Assembly: GCF_018531465.1 (NCBI RefSeq)
Contig: NZ_JAHDTF010000021.1
Span: forward strand, 124,001 to 188,000
From: Sphaerisporangium fuscum
GTDB taxonomy: Bacteria > Actinomycetota > Actinomycetes > Streptosporangiales > Streptosporangiaceae
DNA length: 64,000 bases
Direction: 5' to 3'
The first letter of the stretch is position 1; every line of letters begins with the position of its first letter. The notes beneath the pieces are model-generated. The model was not told the DNA's origin and searched no databases. It was given only the letters and a program-made list of their open reading frames with translations. The translations under genes were made by a program, and so were the position numbers. This document shows positions 9,997-18,754 of this stretch, in pieces.

Positions 9997-10017
9997 TGGG
10001 CGGAACACCGGTGATCC

Positions 10018-10210
10018 CGTGCGGGAGAGCGTCCTGACATCCGGTCAGGACCCCTGAAGGAGCAAGTCCTCCCCGCGAACCTCACAAGGCAAAGGACCGT
10101 ACGGGCCAGGTGGTCTCTGGAAAGCAGGCCTTGTCCGCAGGGCCTCGCCGAAGGTGAAAGTCCGGCAAAACCCGGGCGAAACTCTCAGGCACCGATGACA
10201 GAGGGGGAGG
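10018..10210 (+). ncRNA. tandem glycine riboswitch
   Basis: Two consecutive aptamers are visible. The first spans about 10018-10102, with GCGGGAGAG at its 5' side, a variable hairpin (GTCCTGAC/GTCAGGAC) and CTGAAGGAGCAA, closing with CGAACCTCACAAGGCAAAGG. The second spans about 10109-10206, with TCTCTGGAAAGC, then GCCGAAGGTGAAAG and AACTCTCAGGCACCGATGAC. These are the conserved GGAGAG, GAAGGAGC and CTCAGGCAAAGGACC-type blocks of glycine riboswitches, here in the usual double arrangement joined by a short linker. Position directly before gcvT supports glycine-induced expression. A GAGGGGGAGGATG segment follows and may be part of the expression platform. Confidence 0.95.
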
Positions 10211-10244
10211 ATGCTCTCATCCAACCCTGTCTGAGGTGCGCTTC

Positions 10245-17788: not shown

Positions 17789-18262
17789 GTGACGCAGACG
17801 AGACTCCAGCCGGGCGACGTTGCGCCCGACTTCACCCTGCCCGACGCCGCGGGCGAGAACACCAGTCTGAAGTCGTTCCGCGGCAAGAGGGTCATCCTCT
17901 ACTTCTATCCCGCCGCGATGACCCCTGGGTGCACCAAGCAGGCGTGTGACTTCCGTGACAGCCTGGAGTCGCTGTCGGCGGCCGGCTTCGCGGTGCTGGG
18001 AGTGTCGAAGGACACCCCGCAGAAGCTCGCCAAGTTCGCCGAGCGCGACTCGCTGACCTTCCCGCTGCTCTCCGACCCCGATCTCACGGTCCACCAGGCC
18101 TACGGCGCCTACGGTGAGAAGACGATGTACGGCAGGACCACCGTCGGTGTGCTGCGGTCGACGTTCGTCATCGACGCCGAAGGCAAGGTCGAGAAGGCCC
18201 TGTACAACGTGAAGGCGACGGGTCACGTGGCGCGCCTGCGCAAAGATCTCGGCCTGGCTTAA
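17789..18262 (+). CDS. bcp: thioredoxin-dependent peroxiredoxin (BCP/PrxQ)
   Basis: The 157-residue protein reduces hydrogen peroxide and organic peroxides in the cytosol. FYPAAMTPGCTKQACDFRD carries the peroxidatic Cys (about residue 48) and the resolving Cys five residues later (residue 53), the alpha2-type PrxQ arrangement. PDFTLPDAAG at the N-terminus and RTTVGVLRSTFVIDAEG are family-typical. GTG 17789 is the only sensible start. The gene is directly followed by a tRNA gene on the same strand. Confidence 0.93.
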   Translation: MTQTRLQPGDVAPDFTLPDAAGENTSLKSFRGKRVILYFYPAAMTPGCTKQACDFRDSLESLSAAGFAVLGVSKDTPQKLAKFAERDSLTFPLLSDPDLTVHQAYGAYGEKTMYGRTTVGVLRSTFVIDAEGKVEKALYNVKATGHVARLRKDLGLA

Positions 18263-18290
18263 TCGGTACGGCTGTCGCCCCGGGCTCAAC

Positions 18291-18296
18291 TAGGAT
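18291..18296 (+). promoter_or_regulatory. -10 element of the tRNA gene
   Basis: TAGGAT lies 24 bases upstream of the mature tRNA 5' end, implying a short 5' leader of about 18 bases. Confidence 0.45.
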
Positions 18297-18320
18297 GGCG
18301 CAAGCCGCGAAACAAGGCCC

Positions 18321-18393
18321 GGGGTCGTAGCCCAATGGCAGAGGCACAGGTTTTAGGTACCTGACAGTGTGGGTTCGAATCCCACCGGCCCCA
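18321..18393 (+). tRNA. tRNA with UAG anticodon (reads CUA, Leu) but class I variable loop
   Basis: A full cloverleaf can be drawn. The acceptor GGGGTCG pairs with CGGCCCC (18386-18392) and the discriminator is A18393. The D arm is GCCC...AGGC; the anticodon stem CAGGT/ACCTG encloses the loop TTTAGGT. The T arm GTGGG/CCCAC carries TTCGAAT. The anticodon at 18354-18356 is TAG, giving UAG in RNA, which decodes CUA leucine. The variable loop is only ACAGT (five bases), whereas bacterial tRNA-Leu normally has a long class II variable arm. No CCA is encoded. The charging identity is therefore uncertain. Confidence 0.9.
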
Positions 18394-18433
18394 CCGTTTC
18401 CGTCCGGGCCGCCACACTGCCCGGACAGTACGA

Positions 18434-18462
18434 GAGCCGCCTCCACTTGGTGGAGGCGGCTC
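18434..18462 (+). terminator. strong hairpin downstream of the tRNA gene
   Basis: GAGCCGCCTCCA and TGGAGGCGGCTC form a perfect 12-bp stem with a 5-base loop, 40 bases after the tRNA. There is no T-run, as is common in high-GC actinobacteria. Confidence 0.8.
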
Positions 18463-18754
18463 GACCGCATCGGCCCGCTGGGCATGGGGCGTCAAGCGTG
18501 GGAGGGGATGGAGGTCAGGGCCTCCGGGTCGCGTGACTTTCCCCCCTGCCACGCGACCCGTCGTCTTTGTCCCCGCGCATCTCATTCTCCCTTTACTCAC
18601 CCTCAAGGGGTGCTCCCAATAAGAACTATCCCGTACGCCCCGTAAGACCGCTGTAAGGCATTTGCGGCGAACGACGGGTCTACGACCTGGGTCGTAGGGA
18701 CAGATCCCTCTCCAGGCGGAAGGGCCGTGAACTGGCCGAACATAGGGTGGTTGC
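18463..18754. promoter_or_regulatory. two-component operon upstream region with hairpin and palindromic operator
   Basis: Within this gene-free stretch, CGGGTCGCGTG at 18525-18535 pairs perfectly with 18550-18560 (11-bp stem). CTACGACC at 18680-18687 is repeated inverted at 18690-18697 with a 2-base spacer, a likely response-regulator site. TAGGGT at 18743-18748 is a -10 ending 6 bases before the GTG at 18755. The segment 18590-18660 is relatively AT-rich. Confidence 0.6.

Follow-up and report, generated by a model that had tools for sequence, protein, structure and literature searches.

In textbooks and reviews, a long variable arm counts among the fixed features of bacterial tRNA-Leu. The DNA analysed here (the window: a stretch of 64,000 nucleotides from Sphaerisporangium fuscum, contig NZ_JAHDTF010000021.1, positions 124,001 to 188,000) carries a tRNA gene with the leucine anticodon UAG and a short variable loop. 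Which amino acid such a tRNA carries, whether it serves translation and how it came by its form are the questions raised by this locus. A preliminary description had offered three options: charging by another synthetase, charging by LeuRS in an unusual way, or a non-translational role.

ARAGORN reported the gene as tRNA-Leu (tag) at 18321-18395, on the forward strand and as the sole tRNA gene of the window. Rfam model RF00005 matched 18321-18393 from end to end (59.7 bits, E 2.2e-10). Stems of 7, 3, 5 and 5 bp were read from the sequence; the long variable arm of at least 10 nt that marks class II is absent from this tRNA, which has 5 nt only. The good cloverleaf, 5-base variable loop and UAG anticodon described before were confirmed. 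A sequencing or assembly error that hides a long arm was considered and is unlikely, class I UAG genes being present in three genomes of the same genus (G219, G214 and G217). The features are listed in Table 1.

Table 1. Position and basis of the features at the tRNA-Leu(UAG) locus (window coordinates).
Feature	Coordinates	Strand	Basis
bcp/PrxQ peroxiredoxin, frequent upstream neighbour of tRNA-Leu(UAG)	17789..18262	+	NF006960; synteny
-10-like box, TAGGAT	18291..18296	+	comparison with Sphaerisporangium loci
class I tRNA-Leu(UAG) gene, positions 1-73	18321..18393	+	ARAGORN, RF00005, models R1 and R2
D loop AAUGGCAG: A14, A15, G18G19 and A20a, identity elements of E. coli LeuRS	18334..18341	+	sequence; available text of PMC9976931
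anticodon UAG (34-36), reader of CUA; G37 next	18354..18356	+	ARAGORN, sequence
variable loop ACAGU, 5 nt (44-48); U48 opposite A15	18364..18368	+	sequence
discriminator A73; CCA unencoded, ACCG next	18393..18393	+	sequence, RF00005
GC-rich hairpin, possible terminator without T-run	18434..18462	+	sequence

Three covariance models were used. R1 was built from the three class I tRNA-Leu genes of the S. fuscum genome (UAG, UAA and CAA); R2 is the class I UAG model and R3 the class II UAG model, with cut-offs derived from 28 sources, training genes included. R1 scored its training genes at 95-99 bits and the best other tRNA of the genome at 58.7 bits (44 sources from 56 loci and the window). The window tRNA, a training gene of both R1 and R2, scored 96.4 and 100 bits, respectively.

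Stem pairing was compared over 32 distinct bcp-linked class I UAG genes, the window gene included. All 640 stem cells were paired and both sides had changed in 132, so the cloverleaf of the window tRNA is not due to chance. The same pairing argues against a tRNA-like RNA without a part in translation, or a gene in decay. The unencoded CCA could be taken as a sign of either, but other tRNAs of the genome likewise lack a terminal CCA in the ARAGORN output. The promoter scan gave no sigma-70 consensus site or pair, against which stand a -10-like box conserved as TAGGAT or TAAGAT in 4/4 loci (the window and three other Sphaerisporangium loci) and the fact that no other UAG gene was found in the genome. 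Decay or a non-translational role is thus very unlikely. The -10 box ascribed to the gene by the preliminary description stands as a conserved TAGGAT-like box, not as a sigma-70 consensus site.

The leucine identity elements were examined next to those of LeuRS substrates elsewhere. According to the available text of PMC9976931, E. coli LeuRS requires A73, A15-U48, G18G19 and A20a, the anticodon and the long arm are dispensable, and E. coli tRNA-Leu variants without both arms remain active with LeuRS. Charging by LeuRS therefore need not even be the unusual event offered as an option in the preliminary description. In the same text, human mitochondrial tRNA-Leu(UUR), which also lacks the long arm, is charged by LeuRS via A73 and A14; unlike the window tRNA it is organellar, has a partly unfolded anticodon branch and bears another anticodon. 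All of the bacterial LeuRS identity elements (A73, A14, A15-U48, G18G19 and A20a) are present in the window tRNA. Among the class I UAG genes of its relatives (n = 37, 31 distinct), A14, G18G19, A20a and A73 were each found in 37, A15 in 35 and U48 in 28. All five tRNA-Leu of the S. fuscum genome have A14, A15, U48 and A73. The combination of A15, U48 and A73 occurred in 5/5 of these and in 2/40 non-Leu tRNAs, counted over 40 of 41 sequences (one was dropped by a name clash). As those two are tRNA-Lys(UUU) and tRNA-Gln(UUG), the elements alone are no proof of leucine identity.

The tRNA complement was determined for the whole assembly (10.13 Mb, 93 contigs, completeness 100, contamination 6.95), in which 58 tRNA matches were found, with 46 distinct sequences. 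Five are tRNA-Leu: UAG (the window gene), UAA (L046) and CAA (L049) are class I with 5-nt loops, and CAG (L053) and GAG (L055) are class II with arms of 15 and 17 nt. The proposed search for a normal class II tRNA-Leu(UAG) elsewhere in the genome was carried out; neither that nor any second UAG gene was found among the 58 matches or above the R3 cut-off. With a sole UAG gene and two isoacceptors of the same shape, the window tRNA is the only CUA reader and not an extra oddity. The premise that bacterial tRNA-Leu is class II fails for three of the five tRNA-Leu of this genome, and for most sampled Actinomycetes as well (see below).

The UAA and CAA genes resemble the window gene in the 5-nt loop, the D loop (AAYGGCAG), A15-U48, the T stem (GUGGG) and A73; they differ from it in anticodon and acceptor stem, and their loci have no adjoining HNH match. 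Outside the variable arm, the identity of the UAG gene was 0.706 to the class I UAA gene and 0.706 to the class II CAG gene, an equal distance that lends no support to a common origin of the class I genes.

A single LeuRS gene was found over the cut-off in the genome (TIGR00396, 940 bits, 822 aa). This LeuRS has no leucine-specific insertion before KMSKS (profile positions 570-603 unmatched; a gap opposite T. thermophilus 579-636). The solved chain 5ah5 (822 residues), in the part of its record that was available, aligns with it in one stretch. Two types of LeuRS occur in Actinomycetes (L065:480-2948; G361, G391 and G343), one of about 822 aa without the insertion and a longer one with 51-53% local identity. 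One genome, G326, gave two LeuRS-like matches, of 77% and 41% identity. A special LeuRS as the cause of short-arm tolerance was considered and rejected. The insertion-free type, 85% identical, is present in two genomes of one genus, G163 with a class I and G167 with a class II UAG gene, and G361 and G391, both with class I tRNA-Leu, have the longer type; the type of LeuRS is, from these comparisons, independent of the class of the tRNA.

Decoding was assessed by comparing 244 kb of the S. fuscum genome with 260 kb of a genome of the same genus (135 ORF matches, 77% identity). Leucine was the commonest residue at CTA sites: in this small sample, Leu was aligned at 30 of 49 sites and Val at 12 (10 of them GTA), the background for Leu being 9.5%. 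When identical CTA pairs were removed, Leu stood at 14 of 33 sites, against the same background. An earlier and smaller test with more distant relatives had given Leu at 5/10 CTA sites.

Together with the identity elements, the tRNA complement, the stem pairing and the mutual replacement of the two classes (see below), these comparisons, which lean to leucine, make it very probable that the window gene encodes a leucine tRNA for translation, with the rare codon CUA as its target and the single LeuRS as the enzyme that loads it. Its expression, its charging by that enzyme and the amino acid itself are what we infer here; of the options in the preliminary description, charging by LeuRS is the best reading. 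The window tRNA would belong with the actinobacterial class I tRNA-Leu (UAG, UAA and CAA), which are without the long arm and retain the elements of the hinge region and the acceptor end that LeuRS reads. The one LeuRS of the cell would charge it with leucine, and it would read CUA.

Charging by another synthetase, with CUA assigned to another amino acid by an allo-tRNA or a reassigning tRNA, would suit the class I form under a Leu anticodon and the rarity of CUA (1.07 per 1000 aligned codons), and the available text of PMC7609411 records a precedent in tRNA-Thr(UAG) of yeast mitochondria. It is nevertheless highly improbable: the leucine elements are kept in the class I UAG genes of the relatives, the class I and class II UAG genes replace each other completely over 121 genomes (see below), CTA aligns mainly with Leu, and tRNA-Leu(CAA), which is built alike, reads the more frequent codon UUG, at which Leu was aligned in 113 of 141 sites of the same comparison. 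The kept elements, the mutual replacement of the classes and the leucine at CTA leave both this option and the non-translational one unsupported.

The shape of the tRNA was also compared with that of known allo-tRNAs and of serine tRNAs. The long arm and the discriminator G73 are part of serine identity. Marks of serine identity were absent from the window tRNA, which has a 5-nt loop and A73. Allo-tRNAs (Mukai et al., 2017, via the available text of PMC7609411) have an unexpected shape and sense anticodons, Leu ones included, and in both respects resemble the window tRNA. They differ from it in an acceptor branch of 8/4 or 9/3 and in being mostly of serine identity; neither branch was found in the window tRNA, which has a 7-bp acceptor stem and a 5-bp T stem (7/5) with leucine elements.

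The spread of class I tRNA-Leu was surveyed with R1 (E ≤ 1e-13). The genomes matched came to at most 343 of 345 for the order, 269 of 296 for a draw over the class Actinomycetes and 96 of 296, a third at most, for a draw over the phylum; the counts are upper bounds, as nine of the 49 loci read from the phylum draw were tRNA-Met or tRNA-Lys, with scores up to 67.6 bits. The other 40 of those 49 loci, 20 of which had been picked as weaker matches, were short-loop tRNA-Leu. The best loci were short-loop tRNA-Leu (UAA, CAA or UAG) in 30/30 cases for the order, the UAA gene of S. fuscum included, and in 29/29 for the class, one locus cut by a contig end being set aside. Members of the class Actinomycetes commonly carry class I tRNA-Leu, which is patchier elsewhere in the phylum; the window tRNA departs from the textbook form but is normal for its lineage. 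Most sampled Actinomycetes (up to 269/296) have at least one tRNA-Leu without the long arm, for UUA, UUG or CUA, which is a warning to annotators inclined to flag a short-armed tRNA-Leu as odd. One locus from a genome titled Acidobacteria bacterium MAG G2_29 (L244; genome G883) has a Bcp 68% identical to that of the window and a class I model score of 87.8 bits; it is perhaps a misassigned actinobacterial MAG.

The place of the gene after a peroxiredoxin gene had been correctly noted in the preliminary description; bcp/PrxQ (NF006960) ends 59 nt before the tRNA. Relatives were searched for orthologues next to bcp, as had been suggested there, by a Bcp scan of named genomes that gave 80 loci. 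A tRNA-Leu(UAG) gene was present at 66 of the 80, in class I form (73-76 nt) at 37 and in class II form (80-85 nt) at 29, eight of the latter on the other strand. It was absent from the fetched stretch at the remaining 14, of which one (L223) ends early at a contig edge. In substance these orthologues make up a family of ordinary tRNA-Leu. The tRNA databases presumably carry the class I genes already, named tRNA-Leu.

Both classes occur at the bcp locus within single genera (class I versus class II: Nonomuraea 2 and 8, Nocardioides 4 and 4, Thermomonospora 1 and 1). A Bcp tree of 67 rows, weakly supported with 12 of 64 inner branches starred, required at least 12 class changes, of which five are imposed by well-supported branches; shuffled labels gave 22. 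R2 and R3 were each run over 121 genomes of the order, the same ones as far as the genomes listed show; R2 was matched in 101 and R3 in 21, and all 20 genomes without R2 had R3. The R3 match of the lone genome with both (G321) proved on reading to be tRNA-Leu(CAG). Within the R2 and R3 cut-offs the genomes thus divide into 101 with class I, 20 with class II and 0 with both UAG forms (n = 121). One form per genome, swapped at one locus, is what is expected if both classes do the same job. The window tRNA stands in for the class II tRNA-Leu(UAG) found at the bcp locus of other species.

The class II tRNA-Leu(UAG) of the bcp locus, e.g. that of Nonomuraea gerenzanensis (L056), shares with the window gene its chromosomal place, its occurrence as one form per genome, the anticodon, A14, A15-U48, G18G19 and A73. 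It differs in the long arm (80-85 versus 73-76 nt) and in its acceptor and D stems. The N. gerenzanensis record (NZ_LT559118.1, 11.85 Mb) is titled plasmid I; its size fits a chromosome. The CUA reader thus exists in two interchangeable forms at one locus within one order, and such class I/II pairs are natural substrates for studying how LeuRS, SerRS and modification enzymes tell tRNAs apart.

A second gene was found at some of these loci. In Nonomuraea antri, an HNH endonuclease frame (Pfam HNH; PHROG 10822, about 1e-47) lies between bcp and the class I tRNA. HNH matches were present at 18 of the 66 named tRNA-Leu(UAG) loci, and the only further one among all loci compared, many of them short-flanked, was also at a UAG gene (L085); beside the UAA and CAA tRNA-Leu loci compared there were none. 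Whole genomes were searched with one such protein as query (E ≤ 1e-20). In the order, 24 of 121 genomes had a match, in single copy, and 24/24 lay within 26 nt of tRNA-Leu(UAG), 22 of them upstream of class I genes on the same strand and two convergent with class II genes. Over the class, 31 of 296 genomes had matches, 23 of them outside the order; loci were obtained for 22 of these (G509 was left out), and at 22/22 the HNH gene preceded tRNA-Leu(UAG) in the same orientation, no more than about 420 nt away and often in tandem copies. Loci with HNH beside tRNA-Leu(UAG) include L177, L180, L197, L199, L202, L203, L206, L314-L334 and L338-L359.

At the intact class I loci of Streptosporangiaceae the HNH frame had no in-frame stop ahead of the tRNA (23/23). 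Its first stop fell at tRNA position 8 (U8A9G10, the class I consensus) in six, deeper inside the tRNA in three and beyond it in 14. Copies with stops, frameshifts or truncations were also found (L330, L200, L205, L178 and L335); among intact copies the median dN/dS was 0.21 (157 of 190 pairs, 20 copies). An HNH tree was built from 56 copies, leaving out duplicates of named copies and those broken or cut (L178, L205, L224 and L335-L337). One supported group held all but one of the 25 copies of the order that are linked to class I (24), and the Nonomuraea copies linked to class II, which are on the opposite strand, fell in a separate group; seven class changes were counted, against 17.6 with shuffled labels. 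In Nonomuraea the class of the tRNA and the clade of the endonuclease go together, as if they moved as a unit. The class I gene of Nonomuraea solani, which has the same sequence as its N. antri counterpart, has no more than an HNH remnant next to it.

The linkage of HNH and tRNA-Leu(UAG) hints at a homing-type element behind the class switches. It is possible, though less likely than not, and put forward tentatively, that a dedicated HNH homing endonuclease resides at the tRNA-Leu(UAG) of Actinomycetes and swaps the class of the tRNA at the bcp locus. The HNH gene would then make up one unit with the class I tRNA-Leu(UAG) in Streptosporangiaceae, the HNH frame entering the tRNA, and the unit would invade the bcp locus via cutting and gene conversion. 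A class II tRNA, perhaps the cleavable allele, would be replaced by a class I tRNA, perhaps resistant to cutting, and the endonuclease would decay afterwards, leaving the class I tRNA on its own, the state of the window. If true, an essential tRNA has repeatedly been switched from one structural class to the other by a selfish element. Several results speak against such homing. The endonuclease is as frequent at class II (8/29) as at class I (10/37) named loci, no HNH match (E ≤ 1e-20) was obtained in 79 of the 101 genomes of the order draw with a class I gene, the classes are mixed among Streptomyces-like genomes on the HNH tree (eight class I, six class II), and relatives of the protein below 60% identity occur in 47 phage records. 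No HNH match was found in the window (E ≤ 1e-8), in the S. fuscum genome (G000) or in the three genomes of the same genus that were drawn (both E ≤ 1e-20), and a mobile history of the window tRNA is therefore conjecture.

Loss of the variable arm of a class II gene in place, with no mobile element, would equally give a leucine-charged class I tRNA and concerns its origin only. The shared locus and neighbours, the HNH-free window and sampled genomes of its genus, and an endonuclease found no more often at the named class I loci than at the class II ones would all fit such a loss. The class I and class II UAG genes of Streptosporangiaceae differ throughout, however, acceptor and D stems included, which looks like replacement, and the class I genes of N. 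antri and N. solani are identical and preceded by an HNH frame or remnant; loss in place is accordingly rather unlikely. With the HNH link, replacement of an essential tRNA by homing elements becomes a testable question.

Comparable systems were sought in the literature, for which the PMC articles named below were available in part. In mycobacteria, a short-loop tRNA-Leu(TAG) lies in a transferred tRNA cluster that also holds an HNH gene (PMC6582537). Like the window gene it pairs a UAG anticodon with a short variable loop; it is an extra copy beside a normal one, whereas the window gene is the sole chromosomal UAG gene. Of the protein genes in mycobacterial tRNA arrays, those for HNH proteins are the most widespread (PMC5966550, PMC9569102), and an endonuclease gene beside the tRNA genes of mycobacteria and phages has been proposed as a mover of tRNAs (PMC5966550, PMC6582537, PMC9569102); the T4 endonuclease SegB, also encoded beside tRNA genes, is cited in PMC6582537. 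These genes and the HNH gene of the relatives of the window are alike in adjoining tRNA genes; the mycobacterial and phage HNH genes lie in arrays, the HNH gene of the relatives at one chromosomal gene, tRNA-Leu(UAG). For M. tuberculosis, the long loop is named 'especially' for tRNA-Leu-2, 3 and 5 (PMC11541572), and bacterial tRNA genes are 'surprisingly uniform' in the words of a 2014 review (PMC4033280). In the literature searched, which covered few subscription papers, no statement was found of class I tRNA-Leu as the rule for some leucine codons of Actinomycetes, or of an HNH link to tRNA-Leu(UAG).

Downstream of the window tRNA, the terminator claimed before holds in so far as GC-rich hairpins follow (18402-18426 and 18434-18462). 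It does not hold as a hairpin plus T-run, none having been found in the terminator scan of the forward strand, where 18434-18462 was unscored as a terminator. A hairpin like the latter is present in L176, and none was seen in L175 or L181. The ORFs on the reverse strand at 18168-18606, antisense to the tRNA, are likely spurious, being the reverse strand of the tRNA. Elsewhere in the window, tandem glycine riboswitch aptamers (RF00504) were matched on the forward strand at 10012-10109 (56.9 bits) and 10110-10211 (46.1 bits).
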